A stretch of DNA of 35,668 bases, taken from positions 1 through 35,668 of the forward strand of contig WJMC01000217.1 of the NCBI GenBank assembly GCA_014728145.1, in the 5' to 3' direction. Source of the stretch: Candidatus Zixiibacteriota bacterium. GTDB taxonomy: Bacteria > Zixibacteria > MSB-5A5 > JAABVY01. How positions within the stretch are numbered: the first letter of the stretch is position 1; each line of letters starts with the position of its first letter. Positions 1,032 to 23,480 of the stretch are shown here, one piece after another. The notes beneath the pieces were generated by a model. That model had not been told where the DNA came from. It did not search any database and saw nothing but the letters and a program-made list of their open reading frames with translations. The position numbers and the translations under genes were made by a program.

Positions 1032-1089
1032 ATTGCTTGTATTGATTTGTTTAACTTCAATGTGACTGACTTATATACATGAGGTGATT

Positions 1090-1941
1090 ATGCGCAGGAT
1101 AAAATTCTTTAAAATGCACGGTCTCGGTAACAGCTTCATATTCCTGGATCTGCTTGACAGGAGCTACCGCTCAGTCGATTACAGCGACCTGGCCAGGAGT
1201 ATCTGCGATATCTCCACGGGGGTGGGTGCCGACGGGCTGATCCTGATCGGCAAGTCGAGAAGGGCCGATTTTGCCATGAGGATCATCAATTCTGACGGCA
1301 GTGAGGCGGAGATGTGCGGCAATGGCCTGCGTTGTATGGTGCGCTACCTGTATGACAACCAGCTGGCTTCCGGAAAAAAAATGAATGTGGATACGCTGGC
1401 GGGCAGGATTTCTGCCGAGGTGGTGGACAGTTCGAAAAACAGCTTCAAGGTTAAAGTGGCGATGGGAAGACCTGTTTTTGATACCGATCAGATTCCGGTT
1501 TTGAGCAGATCCAAGGAGCATATCGAAAAAGCAATCCGGGTAAATAATCAACAGTTGAAGATCACTGTTGTTTCGATGGGCAACCCGCATGCAGTCTGTT
1601 TTGTGGAGGATTTTGATTTCGATCTGCATTTGCTCGGACCTATGCTGGAAAACCACAAGATATTCCCGGAACGCGCAAATGTCGAATTCGTGAAAGTCTT
1701 ATCTTCAAACAGGATAGCCCTCAAAAGCTGGGAACGTGGAGCCGGACCGACCAGCGCTTCAGGAACCGGTGCTTCTGCATCGGTTGCGGCCGGGATAAAA
1801 ACCGGGCGTTTGCGTAGCGAAGTTGATGTCAGATTCGAAAATGGTAACCTGGCTTTATATCAGGATCCCGATGAACATGTGATTTACCAGTCCGGACCCG
1901 CAGAGTATATCCTGTGCGGTGAATACTACTATCGCGGATAA
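1090..1941 (+). CDS. dapF: Diaminopimelate epimerase, with Ser replacing the second catalytic Cys
   Basis: DapF interconverts LL- and meso-diaminopimelate for lysine and peptidoglycan synthesis in the cytoplasm. The 283-residue protein has the family length and order: N-terminal FFKMHGLGNSFIFLD, the DG.E.CGNG..C block with catalytic Cys76, MGNPHAVCF, and the second half-site ERGAGPT...GTGA. The family normally has two opposing cysteines (73 and 217 in E. coli). Here the second motif reads SASGTGAS, with Ser224 (codon TCA, 1759-1761) where Cys is expected; this was checked at the nucleotide level. The rest of the motif is intact, so a frameshift is unlikely. The start is ATG 1090 behind GAGGTGA; a GTG at 1084 lies inside that ribosome site. 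A -10-like TATATA at 1072 is possible but has no good -35. argS follows by 51 bases. The family is certain; catalytic competence is open. Confidence 0.93.
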   Translation: MRRIKFFKMHGLGNSFIFLDLLDRSYRSVDYSDLARSICDISTGVGADGLILIGKSRRADFAMRIINSDGSEAEMCGNGLRCMVRYLYDNQLASGKKMNVDTLAGRISAEVVDSSKNSFKVKVAMGRPVFDTDQIPVLSRSKEHIEKAIRVNNQQLKITVVSMGNPHAVCFVEDFDFDLHLLGPMLENHKIFPERANVEFVKVLSSNRIALKSWERGAGPTSASGTGASASVAAGIKTGRLRSEVDVRFENGNLALYQDPDEHVIYQSGPAEYILCGEYYYRG

Positions 1942-1992: not shown

Positions 1993-3702
1993 ATGACGGA
2001 CTTTATTTATGATGATCTGGTTGGATTGCTGAGCCCTGAAGTCGAGCTCGATGAAGACAGGATTCGTTCCCTTCTCGAGAAACCTCGCGACAGCAAGTTC
2101 GGCGATTTCGCTTTTCCAGCTTTCAGCCTGGCGAAAATACGGAAAAACGCACCACCCAAAATCGCCCAGGAGATATACTCAAAGATCGAAGGCAAATTGC
2201 CGTACAACTCGATCACTTCAGCTTCGGTCGCCGGGGGTTATATCAATTTCACCGTGGACACAAAAACCCTGGCGGAAAAACTGCTTTCGCGGATCTTCAA
2301 ACTTGGAAAAGATTACGGTAACAGCAGTATCGGTGAGGGCGAGAATGTCATCATAGATTTATCCTCCCCCAATATCGCCAAGCCTTTTCATGTCGGCCAC
2401 CTCCGCTCGACAGTCGTCGGGAGCTGTCTCTACCGCCTGTACGAAAAACTTGGCTATAAATGTGTCGGGATCAATCACCTTGGCGACTGGGGCACGCAAT
2501 TCGGTAAATTGATCGTAGCGTTTAAGAAGTTCGCCGACGATAAAACCTTCCGGAAAGAACCTGTTTACGCACTCCTGGATCTGTATATTCGATTTCACAG
2601 AGAAGCTAAACAGGATCCCGCGCTCGAGGACGAGGCCCGGGCCGAATTCAAAAAGCTCGAGCAGGGTGATGCCGAAGCGCTTGCGATCTGGCGTAAGTTT
2701 CTCGATTACAGCCTCGAAGAATACAAGCGCATTTATGATATCCTGAATGCCACAATTGATGAATACACAGGTGAATCTTTTTACAACGACAAGATGGATT
2801 CCGCGCTTGAGCTTCTGGAGTCACGCGGGATGACCCGCTTGAGCCGTGATGCCCTGATTGTCGATCTCGAGGAATATGACCTGGGCGCGGCACTATTGCG
2901 TAAATCGGATGAATCGACATTGTACCTGACACGTGACCTGGCAGCCATATTATACCGCTACAAAACTTATGATTTCGCCAAAGCTTTATACGTTGTCGGG
3001 TCAGCGCAGGCATTGCATTTCAAACAGCTCTTCAAGATCGTCGAACTGCTCGGCTATGGCTGGTATGAGAACTGTCATCATGTCGAGTTCGGCTGGATCA
3101 AGTTTGGTAAAGAAATGATGTCCACCCGCGAAGGGAATATAGTTTTTCTTGACGATGTCATCAAAAAGGCAACAGCGCTGGCGCGTGAAATAATCATAGA
3201 TAAAAATCCTGATATCGACGATCTCGATGAATCCGCGCAGGCCATCGGGGTGGGGGCGATAATCTATGCCGACCTGAATGTGCGCCGTACCCATGACATT
3301 AATTTCAGCTGGGAAGAAGCGCTCAATTTTGACGGTAATACGGGACCATATTTGCAGTACACTCATACCCGTCTGGCGAGCCTGGAACGCAAATACGGTA
3401 ATGTTGTCACCGACAAGGTAGACTTCAGCCGGATCGCAGAGCCCGAAGAGAAGAGCCTGATGCTCAGCCTGTATGCTTTCCCTCAAAAGATTGCGCAGGC
3501 GGCCGATGATTTTGAGCCGGCGGTCGTGTGCAATTACCTGTATGAACTGGCACAGTATCTCAACAGTTTTTACCAGAAACATCGCGTGATTTCCGACGAT
3601 GTCGAATTGACCCGGGCGCGCATGCTGTTAATGCGCTCAGTCAGGATCGTAATGGCCGAGGGGCTTCGCATCCTGGGGCTCAAAGCTATGGAGAAAATGT
3701 GA
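1993..3702 (+). CDS. argS: Arginyl-tRNA synthetase
   Basis: ArgRS charges tRNA-Arg with arginine. The 569-residue length is normal for the bacterial enzyme. An N-terminal ArgRS additional domain (about residues 1-95) is followed by the class I catalytic core with the HIGH box HVGH (133-136, within SSPNIAKPFHVGHLRS) and the ArgRS-type KMSKS counterpart MSTREGN (376-382). A C-terminal DALR anticodon-binding domain (about 450-569) ends in the usual GLRILGLKAMEKM. The ATG at 1993 follows GGGAGG at only two bases, a tight but usable spacing. The stop TGA (3700-3702) overlaps the start of the next gene by one base, indicating translational coupling. Confidence 0.97.
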   Translation: MTDFIYDDLVGLLSPEVELDEDRIRSLLEKPRDSKFGDFAFPAFSLAKIRKNAPPKIAQEIYSKIEGKLPYNSITSASVAGGYINFTVDTKTLAEKLLSRIFKLGKDYGNSSIGEGENVIIDLSSPNIAKPFHVGHLRSTVVGSCLYRLYEKLGYKCVGINHLGDWGTQFGKLIVAFKKFADDKTFRKEPVYALLDLYIRFHREAKQDPALEDEARAEFKKLEQGDAEALAIWRKFLDYSLEEYKRIYDILNATIDEYTGESFYNDKMDSALELLESRGMTRLSRDALIVDLEEYDLGAALLRKSDESTLYLTRDLAAILYRYKTYDFAKALYVVGSAQALHFKQLFKIVELLGYGWYENCHHVEFGWIKFGKEMMSTREGNIVFLDDVIKKATALAREIIIDKNPDIDDLDESAQAIGVGAIIYADLNVRRTHDINFSWEEALNFDGNTGPYLQYTHTRLASLERKYGNVVTDKVDFSRIAEPEEKSLMLSLYAFPQKIAQAADDFEPAVVCNYLYELAQYLNSFYQKHRVISDDVELTRARMLLMRSVRIVMAEGLRILGLKAMEKM

Positions 3703-5057
3703 TGACTCAGACAATGACCGATAAGCTGATCCTTGTCCCAGGATCGAAAAGACATACTATAAATTCCCTGCTGGCCGGAATTCTTTCCAAACAAGATGTG
3801 ACCATCGCTAATCCGTATCCGGGACTTGACCTGGATACATATAGACCGCTGTTAAACTCTGCAGGCTATGATCTGTCAAAAAACGAGGGTAAACTTGTTC
3901 TTGAGAAAAATGAAAGTGTTGAAGCTGAGTCTTCAAATTTTGTGGATAGTAAAACGATCTTTCAGGTAGATGATCGTCTCGCCCTGGCTCTCAACCTCAA
4001 GCACAACATGAAACTCAGTTACCGTCGTGAAAACAGCGAGGATTTTGAACGCAAGGTTTTGGTTCTGCGTCGTACGGGAGTTGAATTAGCCGAGGGAAAC
4101 GGTGACCAGGACGACACTGAGAAAATCAATTTCCATTCTTTCAACCCGGTCAAGATCAAATTTAATTTTGCGACCAGTAATTATAATATGGCGGAAACAG
4201 TTGGTCTGATGAATTCCCTGTCGGGGAAGGACTATGAACTGCTGGCTGATTTTGACCTGGCAGATTTGATCGAGCTGTCAAATTACCCTCTGAGTTATGA
4301 ACTTCAAAACCTTGCTCAGCATGAAGAAGAGGACGAACTTGCTAAAAGACTTAAACGGCTCAGGAAAAAATCCGGTAAGAACCGTTTTCATTATCGTCTC
4401 AAAAATCTGCAAAAGCTTGAAGACAGTGAAATCATGCTTCCGGCCGATCCCATGATCTCTTCCTTTCTTGTAGTTTCGGCCGTCTGCAACAATAGCGATA
4501 TCGCTCTCGGATACCTGAAACCATTCAATTGCGATCAGACATTTGTCAGGATATTGAATCGCCTCGGGCTCAAGGCCGATCTCCAGAAGACATCGAGCGA
4601 AAAAAGTCAACCCGGGCATATCATCAAAGTCAGCCCCGATGACCTGACCGGGAGGAAGATCGATGAAAAACAGATGAGGCACTGCCTGTACGCATTCGCT
4701 CCATTGTCAATTATGGCTATGTTCGCAACCGGCAAGACTATACTGCGCGGCCTGCCCAGATCGAGTTCAAAGTGGACATCACGAATTGATGGAGTGGCAA
4801 GGATTTTGACCTCAGCCGGTGCGAGAGTGGGCGAAATCGAGGATGGTCTGGTTATCGAACCGCCACTGCATGATTTCAACGAGGTTGAACCACGGAAACT
4901 CAATGACCCATATCTAATGCTGACACAATTCACAGCCTCTGTTTTAATAAACCGGGAAATACTTCCACCGGAAACTTTTAGTTTTTCTAAAACATATCCA
5001 CATTACCAGGACTTGTTAAAGCAGGTCACATCACTTAAGAAATCCCTTGCCAGTTAG
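3702..5057 (+). CDS. Divergent EPSP-synthase-fold (AroA-like) protein, probably not an active AroA
   Basis: The 451-residue protein keeps the outline of 5-enolpyruvylshikimate-3-phosphate synthase: N-terminal KLILVPGSKRHTINSLLAG (compare PGSKS..NR), a middle DPMISSFLVVSAV block (compare D.SSA..FL.AA), and a C-terminal half that aligns without gaps to E. coli 313-344. Catalytic positions are altered. Asp313 aligns with Tyr330, the KETDR box reads KWTSR (Glu341 to Trp358, Asp343 to Ser360) and DHR reads DPY (402-404). Lys16, Lys357, Arg361 and the final SKTYP lysine are kept. The GNAGT region is not recognisable. Either this is a non-catalytic or repurposed paralogue, or the lineage has an extremely divergent AroA. 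It overlaps argS by one base and precedes the MATE gene by 46 bases. ATG 3702 is preferred to the GTG at 3699. The fold is fairly sure; the function is unknown. Confidence 0.7.
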   Translation: MTQTMTDKLILVPGSKRHTINSLLAGILSKQDVTIANPYPGLDLDTYRPLLNSAGYDLSKNEGKLVLEKNESVEAESSNFVDSKTIFQVDDRLALALNLKHNMKLSYRRENSEDFERKVLVLRRTGVELAEGNGDQDDTEKINFHSFNPVKIKFNFATSNYNMAETVGLMNSLSGKDYELLADFDLADLIELSNYPLSYELQNLAQHEEEDELAKRLKRLRKKSGKNRFHYRLKNLQKLEDSEIMLPADPMISSFLVVSAVCNNSDIALGYLKPFNCDQTFVRILNRLGLKADLQKTSSEKSQPGHIIKVSPDDLTGRKIDEKQMRHCLYAFAPLSIMAMFATGKTILRGLPRSSSKWTSRIDGVARILTSAGARVGEIEDGLVIEPPLHDFNEVEPRKLNDPYLMLTQFTASVLINREILPPETFSFSKTYPHYQDLLKQVTSLKKSLAS

Positions 5058-5103: not shown

Positions 5104-6483
5104 GTGGCTGAGCTTCCTCAGATTCACGCCGGAAACCATAAAATCCAGATTACACAGGGCTCGATTCATAAAGCCTTTTTCAAACTGGCCGCCCCGGCTG
5201 TTGCTACGATGTCGGTAGAATTTGTGCTGTCGATTACTGATATGTTTTTTGTCGGCAGGATTGGCGGTCCGGAACCGGTGGCGATATTGACCTCGAGCAT
5301 GTTTGTGCTCTGGATCGTATGGTCTTTGATGATGATTCTGGATATCGGCGTGGTAGCGGTGATCTCGCGTTATTTCGGGGCCAGTGAATTTGACCGAGCC
5401 AGCTATGTCGGCACACACTCTATCGGTTATGCAGTCATTACAGGTTTAGTTATTACGGTGGTGGGCATAATTCTCGCACCGCTGGCTTTCAAGGTGATGG
5501 AATCCTCGCCCGAAGTTGCTGCCGGCGGGACCTCCTATCTGCGCATAAGATTTCTTGCCAGCATACCATTTGTCATTAATGAAGTTATCGCGGCAACGTT
5601 TAGATCTACCGGGGACACAAAAACTCCCATGATCGCATCTTTTGCTGTTGTCGGTACAAATATAATTCTGGACCCATTATTGATCTTCGGGATCGGACCG
5701 TTCCCGGAGATGGGTACCGATGGCGCTTCACTTGCTTCGGTTTTTGCAGTTCTGGTCGGTACGGTGGTGATCCTGCTGTTTCTGAGAGCGGGTAAGTTGG
5801 CAATTCCTTTAAAGCTCAGATTACTGAGCAAATTTGACTATAAGCTTCTGATCAGGATCACGCGTATCGGATTTCCGCTTTCGATGGCCAGCGTATTGTT
5901 CTCTATGGTATATTTTATTCTTACCAGGATAGCGAACGACTTTGGAGATCCCGCCGTAGCCGCGCTCGGAATAGGAAACCGCTGTGAGTCGATTTCATAC
6001 CTGCTCTGCTTCGGGGCTTCGATGGCTACCAGCGCCATGATTGGCCAGAATCTGGGGGCAAATCAGCCGGATCGGGCTGAAAAAGCTGGATGGGTGTCAT
6101 TTATGTACGGGGCAATATTTACCGGGATAATTTCGATACTCTTTTTTACAATACCTCATCAGATCAGCAGATTCTTCATGCCGGAGGCGACTGTCGAACC
6201 ACTGGTCGTCAACTACCTGATAATCCTGGGTGTCTCGCAGGTCTTTATGGCCGCGGAAATCATCCTCGAAGGCGCATTCTCGGGGGCGGGGGATACCCTG
6301 CCACCGACGATTATCGGAGTCAGCTGGTCATTGTTCCGGATTCCGCTGGCGTACTTTTTGTGCTTCACACTCGATATGGGGATCACCGGTCTGTGGTGGG
6401 CGATTTCCGGGACTTCGATCATCAAAGGGTCAATGCTGATTATCTGGTTTAAACGGGGCAAATGGAAACTCAAGCAAGTCTGA
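5104..6483 (+). CDS. MATE-family multidrug/toxin efflux transporter
   Basis: MATE proteins export cationic drugs, flavins or metabolites in exchange for Na+ or H+ across the inner membrane. This 459-residue protein has the family length and about twelve hydrophobic segments in two homologous six-helix halves (roughly residues 20-220 and 240-450). Typical features are the N-terminal FFKLAAPAVATMSVEFVLSI helix, the TDMFFVGRIG turn, and the mid-protein ATFRSTGDTKTPM loop, repeated in the second half as GAFSGAGDTLPPT. The GTG start at 5104 is supported by AAGGGGAT seven bases upstream; no other start has a comparable site. It is a NorM/DinF-like member of unknown substrate. The next gene starts about 47 bases later. 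Confidence 0.92.
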   Translation: MAELPQIHAGNHKIQITQGSIHKAFFKLAAPAVATMSVEFVLSITDMFFVGRIGGPEPVAILTSSMFVLWIVWSLMMILDIGVVAVISRYFGASEFDRASYVGTHSIGYAVITGLVITVVGIILAPLAFKVMESSPEVAAGGTSYLRIRFLASIPFVINEVIAATFRSTGDTKTPMIASFAVVGTNIILDPLLIFGIGPFPEMGTDGASLASVFAVLVGTVVILLFLRAGKLAIPLKLRLLSKFDYKLLIRITRIGFPLSMASVLFSMVYFILTRIANDFGDPAVAALGIGNRCESISYLLCFGASMATSAMIGQNLGANQPDRAEKAGWVSFMYGAIFTGIISILFFTIPHQISRFFMPEATVEPLVVNYLIILGVSQVFMAAEIILEGAFSGAGDTLPPTIIGVSWSLFRIPLAYFLCFTLDMGITGLWWAISGTSIIKGSMLIIWFKRGKWKLKQV

Positions 6484-6529
6484 GGTTGATCTTTTCGTGA
6501 CGGTAAGTTTTATTAGACGTGGAGGTGAG

Positions 6530-7465
6530 TTGAATAAAGTCGGCTACATATATCACGATCTTTACCTTAAACACAAGGCATCAACATATCATCCCGAAAG
6601 ACCTGAAAGACTGATCGCGATAAATACCGCCGTCGAAGACGCCGGGTTGTTCGACGATCTGGTTCGAATCACACCGAAACCCGCTGAAAAAGAAGATATC
6701 CTTAAAGTACACAGCGAAGAGTACTACAAGAGAGTTGAAGCAACCAAAGGCAAGCAGGGACATCTCGATCCGGATACTTATTACAATGAGCATTCATTTG
6801 ATGCCGCTCTGATGGCGGTCGGGGGAGTTCTAACGGCAGGAAAAAAAGTCTTTGCTAAAGATATAGATCGCGCCTTTTGCGCCGTCAGGCCACCGGGTCA
6901 TCATGTCGATCGCGACAACTCCAAAGGCTTCTGCCTGTTCAACAATATCGCTGTACTGGCCCGCTATCTTATCGATGAATACAAGTTCGAACGTGTCGCG
7001 ATTTTGGATTGGGATGGGCACCACGGTAACGGCACTCAGAACATCTTCTATTCTGATCCCATGGTACATTACACCAGTCTTCATCGTTATCCATTCTATC
7101 CCGGCACCGGAAGTGCATCGGATATGGGTTATGCTGACGGTGTCGGTTACAACCTCAATTTCCCATTGTCGGCCGGCGCGGGAGATCGTGAATTCAACGA
7201 TATCATCAGTCAGACCTGGACCGAGGCGATGAACAACTTCAAACCGCAGATAATCCTGCTGTCAGCCGGTTTTGACGCCTATGAAAAAGATCCGTTGGTC
7301 GGACTGGGGGTAACTCTATCTGGTTTCGAGAAAGCCGGCAGGCGGGTCTGTCGGGTGGCTGATGATATGTGCGGAGGCAGGTTGATTTCAGTTCTTGAGG
7401 GTGGATATGTGCTCAATTTTATAAATCAGGCAGTTATAGATCATTTAAAAATACTAATGGAGTAA
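6530..7465 (+). CDS. Histone deacetylase-family protein (class II/AcuC-like deacylase)
   Basis: Bacterial members of this zinc-dependent family remove acyl groups from lysines (AcuC acts on acetyl-CoA synthetase) or from polyamines. The 311-residue protein carries the whole active site: HPERPERL near the N-terminus, the His124-His125 charge-relay pair in RPPGHHVDRDNSKGFCLFNN, zinc ligands Asp162 and His164 in DWDGHHGNGTQ, Asp249 in LSAGFDAY, and the closing LEGGY. The sequence looks closer to class II/HDAC6-like bacterial deacylases than to AcuC itself. The TTG start at 6530 lies four bases after GGAGG (within GGAGGTGA, 6521-6528). An in-frame GTG at 6497 lacks such a site and would add an atypical leader. 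The FAH-family gene begins three bases after the stop. The substrate cannot be inferred from the neighbours. Confidence 0.93.
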   Translation: MNKVGYIYHDLYLKHKASTYHPERPERLIAINTAVEDAGLFDDLVRITPKPAEKEDILKVHSEEYYKRVEATKGKQGHLDPDTYYNEHSFDAALMAVGGVLTAGKKVFAKDIDRAFCAVRPPGHHVDRDNSKGFCLFNNIAVLARYLIDEYKFERVAILDWDGHHGNGTQNIFYSDPMVHYTSLHRYPFYPGTGSASDMGYADGVGYNLNFPLSAGAGDREFNDIISQTWTEAMNNFKPQIILLSAGFDAYEKDPLVGLGVTLSGFEKAGRRVCRVADDMCGGRLISVLEGGYVLNFINQAVIDHLKILME

Positions 7466-23362: not shown

Positions 23363-23480
23363 GCTCTTCGGGGTGAGGCGAAATTCCTCGACCGGCGGTG
23401 AGAGTCCGTGAGTGGGGCTGAGGCCCCATTGAAACTGTGAAATTCAGTTGCCGACGGTATAGTCCGGATGGGAGAAGAGT
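23363..23480 (+). ncRNA. FMN riboswitch aptamer (RFN element)
   Basis: The RNA binds flavin mononucleotide and switches off the downstream riboflavin genes. The outer helix P1 pairs CTCTTC (23364-23369) with GAAGAG (23474-23479). Internal hairpins match the RFN layout: GAGG/CCTC (23375-23389), the conserved ACCGGCGGT core, the variable TGGGGC/GCCCCA hairpin (23413-23428), ACTG/CAGT (23434-23448), and the highly conserved 3' part GCCGACGGTATAGTCCGG with ATGGGAGAAG. All conserved blocks of the RFN class are present in order. It lies between the predicted promoter and a terminator that precedes ribD, the normal arrangement for FMN control of a riboflavin operon. Confidence 0.96.

Follow-up and report, generated by a model that had tools for sequence, protein, structure and literature searches.

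What occupation is left for an AroA-like protein in a bacterium in which neither the active site of this enzyme nor the pathway that it serves can be recognized? The question is raised by the window, the whole analysed stretch of 35,668 nucleotides from the genome of a Candidatus Zixiibacteriota bacterium, a member of the uncultured Zixibacteria, in which argS is directly followed by an open reading frame of 451 codons (ATG at 3702, stop codon at 5055-5057), encoding a protein designated P0001 (Table 1). The frame is real and intact, as had been claimed from the sequence; an alternative start, GTG at 3699, gives a four-base overlap with the argS stop codon in ATGTGATG. The families of the genome search are coded f1 to f17, with f1 (genomes G000 to G003) being the family of the window. 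All four f1 proteins have the same C-terminal tail, KSLAS (window 5040-5054), while P0001 is otherwise about 40% identical to the others. Downstream of the MATE gene, the f1 loci and most f6 loci encode a histone-deacetylase-family protein (PF00850; window 6497-7465), accompanied in the f1 loci by an FAA hydrolase and a Cys/Met PLP enzyme. Further along the window, an FMN riboswitch (RF00050, 23360-23483 on the + strand, 96.6 bits) precedes the riboflavin genes; as the listed ATG at 23468 falls within this riboswitch, the true start of the first riboflavin gene is probably located further downstream.

Table 1. Coordinates of the AroA-like gene, its altered sites and its neighbours in the window
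Feature	Position	Strand	Remark
dapF	1084..1941	+	5' of argS, synteny conserved
argS (arginyl-tRNA synthetase)	1993..3702	+	directly upstream of the AroA-like gene
AroA-derived protein P0001	3702..5057	+	451 aa, EPSP synthase active site lost
Inserted basic motif DELAKRLKRLR	4332..4364	+	residues 211-221
Tyr330	4689..4691	+	in place of catalytic Asp313
RGLPRSSSKWTSR	4746..4784	+	residues 349-361, replaces the KETDR active-site loop
Asp402-Pro-Tyr	4905..4913	+	in place of Asp384-His385-Arg386
MATE exporter	5104..6483	+	downstream of the AroA-like gene

The proposed relationship to AroA is far above chance, as P0001 is matched by Pfam PF00275 (E=1.9e-14), by NCBIfam TIGR01356 (79 bits, E=2.5e-22, below the equivalog cut-off of 287 bits) and, through its AlphaFold2 model (pLDDT 82, pTM 0.84, 10 sequences in the alignment), by EPSP synthases as best PDB matches (E down to 2.4e-19, TM about 0.65-0.70). 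Comparison with both the AroA and the MurA profile, the check initially suggested, places the protein closer to AroA, with the murA model yielding 16 bits only. The predicted structure possesses the two-domain inside-out alpha/beta enolpyruvyl transferase fold. Conservation is higher in its C-terminal than in its N-terminal domain; the family match spans mainly residues 231-437, while the N-terminal domain is weakly recognized at about residues 10-76. A search of the genome contigs with the single sequence detected no relatives, but an alignment-based search did, and the named sources of these relatives are all Candidatus Zixiibacteriota save one canonical AroA labelled Rhizobium. Among the relatives, 24 copies are orphans, defined by a position directly after argS, the lack of adjoining aro genes and the motif [DNE][EDP][LF]xxR[LMFI]x[KR] in an insert, all of which are displayed by P0001.

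EPSP synthase employs Asp313, Glu341 and Lys22 (E. coli numbering) for catalysis and Arg124, Arg344 and Arg386 for PEP binding. Alignment with E. coli AroA and the Zixibacterial relatives, numbered after E. coli, bears out the loss of catalytic residues reported in the original prediction, with Asp313 replaced by Tyr, Glu341 by Trp, Asp343 by Ser and His385-Arg386 by Pro-Tyr, and extends it beyond the positions first listed, as Arg124 falls in a deletion and S23, R27, N94, G96, T97, R100, S169, S170 and Q171 are changed as well. The equivalent of Lys22 is thus the only catalytic residue kept, and Arg344 (Arg361 of P0001) the only PEP-binding one. Two features that had been thought to persist proved not to be conserved: the Lys22 equivalent of the PGSK loop is kept in just 8 of the 24 orphan copies, and the terminal lysine of KTYP gives way to T or S in the three remaining f1 members, while canonical Zixibacterial AroA has I or V there. 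The canonical Zixibacterial copies, on the other hand, have K22, S23, R27, N94, T97, R100, R124, D313, K340, E341, R344, H385 and R386 in 24 of 24 cases, while none of the 24 orphans retains the complete set of these 13 residues and no f1 copy has more than three left (K22, R344 and one of S23 and K340).

The degenerate active site coincides with the absence of the pathway. Family searches detected no canonical aroA in the genome of the window or in G001 to G003, which encode orthologues of P0001 with 39-40% identity, and in all four f1 genomes neither aroB (dehydroquinate synthase), aroC (chorismate synthase), aroE (shikimate dehydrogenase) and aroQ (type II dehydroquinase) nor chorismate-binding or chorismate-using enzymes. 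These absence calls derive from family-model searches of draft genomes, the genome of the window being 95% complete; as the absences are mutually consistent and the identical searches are positive in 29 to 31 of 58 genomes, missing assembly is an unlikely cause, and two f11 genomes with an orphan copy, G023 and G049, are single contigs. The AroA/MurA superfamily has two members in the genome of the window, P0001 and a protein on contig C77 (E 2e-100 to PF00275), which was considered as a canonical aroA product and dropped as its translation is a normal MurA. Contrary to what had been assumed, P0001 is therefore no paralogue of a canonical AroA in this genome. The lack of any other aroA, initially named as one of two joint signs of a true EPSP synthase, was indeed found, but does not rescue this activity, as the whole pathway is absent too. 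That P0001 is a genuine EPSP synthase of extreme divergence, as its standing as the only AroA-like protein found besides MurA would allow, is thus extremely improbable given four genomes without aroB, aroC, aroE, aroQ or a chorismate-using enzyme and the absence of Asp313, Glu341, Arg124 and Arg386. As both catalytic acids are missing, a single PEP arginine out of three is left and neither substrate supply nor product use is in sight, enolpyruvyl transfer to S3P can be set aside, and the protein probably has another job than EPSP synthesis, in line with the original prediction.

Could the cleft have been rebuilt for a new reaction? Trp358, at the position of Glu341 in the rebuilt loop, is invariant in all aligned f1 and f2 sequences, a pattern not expected from random decay, and Arg349, Arg361 and Asp402 are likewise invariant in both families. 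Degeneration among the orphans forms a gradient from nearly intact in f14 to total in f1, f2 and f6. The f14 orphans (locus L133, 7356-8735, in G057; also in G035 and G040) keep nearly all catalytic residues, with G96 changed to S or A and T97 to A, in genomes without aroB, aroC, aroE and aroQ; these copies could still be enzymes, and may either act on another compound or have been orphaned only recently; more speculatively, their nearly intact sites in the absence of the pathway would be compatible with enolpyruvyl transfer to a new acceptor. An enzyme acting on another, probably phosphorylated, substrate through Trp358, Arg349, Arg361 and Asp402 would accommodate these invariant residues, and the f14 orphans make an active intermediate stage plausible. 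The f1 proteins, however, have lost both acid/base residues as well as Arg124 and Arg386 for PEP binding, and what is left of the cleft is not alike in f1/f2, f6 and f11, with no common new active site to be seen, so that such an enzyme is possible, but on the unlikely side.

Loss of the active site has not been followed by loss of constraint. The f1 copies of the AroA-like gene show a dN/dS of 0.10-0.15 (Nei-Gojobori; approximate, as dS is 1.2-2.2), compared to 0.05 for argS, 0.03-0.05 for the MATE gene and 0.03-0.10 for the neighbours overall, and the frames are full-length at about 40% identity. The gene is clearly under purifying selection, though evolving faster than its neighbours, and a pseudogene is rejected by these values, as had been argued from the intact frame. 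A slowly decaying relic devoid of function would fit a dN/dS about two to six times that of the neighbours and the existence of four related families without the gene, but is very improbable in view of the dN/dS itself, of frames maintained at full length over about 60% protein divergence in f1 and of motif residues conserved in 24 of 24 copies across seven families.

The origin of the gene becomes apparent upon comparison of the loci, in which the names aro, MATE and YraN denote sequence resemblance of clusters except for those checked by Pfam. In the pathway-bearing f3 and f8 genomes, the usual order is argS-aroG-aroA-aroE-aroK-aroB-aroQ with all AroA active sites intact, and in f8 a MATE gene often comes next, bordering the full aro operon in several genomes. 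The order is argS, AroA-like gene and MATE gene in f1, f2 and f6, and argS and AroA-like gene, in some genomes followed by a Gate-domain protein, and then a YraN-like gene in f4, f5, f11 and f14. The conserved operon with argS and MATE of the original prediction is consequently upheld for argS, found upstream in every orphan locus with an assembled upstream side, but not for MATE as a constant partner, which is found downstream in f1, f2 and f6 only. This locus pattern is what remains of an aro operon when all but its aroA is deleted, and the gene orders identify the P0001 gene as the descendant of the argS-linked aroA of an otherwise deleted operon. Pathway-bearing genomes of f6, f2, f5 (G025) and f15 additionally encode a canonical AroA as part of another aro operon. 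Families f9, f12, f13 and f16 have neither pathway nor gene; in these genomes without an AroA match, argS has other neighbours and no AroA remnant was found behind it, which suggests that some backgrounds can do without the new function. As to the Gate-domain proteins, a membrane protein of this type (PF07670) and a second small protein are encoded 3' of the orphan AroA in f11 (L084, 9208-10086), and in a single-contig genome of f12 a Gate-domain pair directly follows argS.

All 24 argS-linked orphan copies, which come from seven families, group into one clade (support 99/96). The slow half (f4, f5, f11 and f14) still groups together when the long branches are left out of the tree (SH-aLRT 97), and f2 joins it with the same support, while f1 alone joins weakly (55) and the grouping of f6 alone is neither supported nor rejected by the tree; the placement of f1 and f6 is thus carried by the shared motif and the gene order. 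A similar decay has occurred a second time. In the f15 genome G036, a degenerate AroA resides behind argS on contig C15 (L097, 8333-9679), with a complete aro operon including a canonical AroA elsewhere in the genome; membership in the orphan clade was rejected (AU p=0.0007), which indicates a separate origin, inside the f3 lineage. Another f15 genome (G050, contig C87; L134, 7125-7523) has the beginning of a comparable copy behind argS, which breaks off at the contig end.

What the orphans share beyond their location is the inserted basic motif, which is absent from E. coli AroA and is predicted to form a helix (residues 212-222) in a part of the model with lower confidence (pLDDT about 60). 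Arg216 is found in 24 of 24 orphans and position 219 is K or R in 24 of 24, while the same two positions are K or R in 33% and 12% of the canonical Zixibacterial copies, where the insertion is hard to align. Positions 288, 319, 350 and 376 (P0001 numbering plus 1) are always basic in orphans and partly so in canonical copies. The retention of frame, fold and surface motif is best explained by a binding role, and P0001 probably works as a pseudoenzyme by binding via the conserved basic motif and the better-conserved C-terminal domain. As the gene is located directly behind argS and overlaps its stop codon in f1, the partner may be guessed to come from translation, either ArgRS or tRNA; the adjacency is, however, inherited from the ancestral operon and need not mean interaction. 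Binding might alternatively concern an anion, with P0001 sensing a metabolite through the Arg344 equivalent without catalysis and controlling expression of argS or the operon. Conservation of the Arg344 and Asp384 equivalents in 24 and 23 of the 24 orphans and two domains predicted intact, which would permit hinge motion, are consistent with such a regulator, but every canonical copy has the two residues as well, and they may play a structural role, and no nucleic-acid-binding domain beyond the short basic helix is found, making this role improbable.

Cumulatively, the account that we favour, fairly probable though well short of certain, is that P0001 is a non-catalytic, exapted AroA descendant that works by binding and whose gene alone survives from an aro operon behind argS. 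An aro operon would once have stood behind argS, the aroA product would have been kept when the shikimate pathway was lost, the catalytic and PEP-binding residues would have decayed thereafter and the two-domain AroA fold would now serve as a non-catalytic binding protein. A more far-reaching version, which we consider unlikely, holds that Zixibacterial AroA had a second, non-shikimate function in connection with ArgRS or translation before the pathway was lost, with the basic helix as the working part and catalysis decaying later in separate lines; if true, this second function would be the reason why aroA alone outlived the pathway.

With respect to its significance, the favoured account describes a pathway enzyme exapted after its pathway had vanished, and the orphans display this at a single syntenic locus in many members of a phylum, as a natural gradation with an intact enzyme at one end and a dead active site at the other. 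What else keeps a 'metabolic' enzyme once its metabolism is gone thereby becomes a testable question. In practical terms, most f4, f5, f11 and f14 copies score above the family cut-off, so that aromatic biosynthesis cannot be concluded from a family score that labels a gene of these genomes as aroA.

Counts of presence and absence indicate that many bacteria have lost most shikimate genes while a few remain (Zucko et al., 2010; PMC3018139); these counts, covering free-living and host-associated bacteria, describe no degenerate AroA under selection, and a search of the open-licence literature turned up neither an EPSP synthase pseudoenzyme nor any account of aromatic auxotrophy for Zixibacteria. 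Among known systems, MurA (UDP-GlcNAc enolpyruvyl transferase, TIGR01072) has the superfamily fold in common with P0001, but differs by profile score and is represented by its own normal copy on C77. EPSP synthase (AroA; TIGR01356, PF00275, EC 2.5.1.19) differs from P0001 by its catalytic and PEP-binding residues, a cut-off far above the score of P0001, the lack of the extra basic helix and a typical setting with a shikimate pathway, but shares with it the two-domain fold, the gene lineage and, in pathway-bearing Zixibacteria, the position behind argS.
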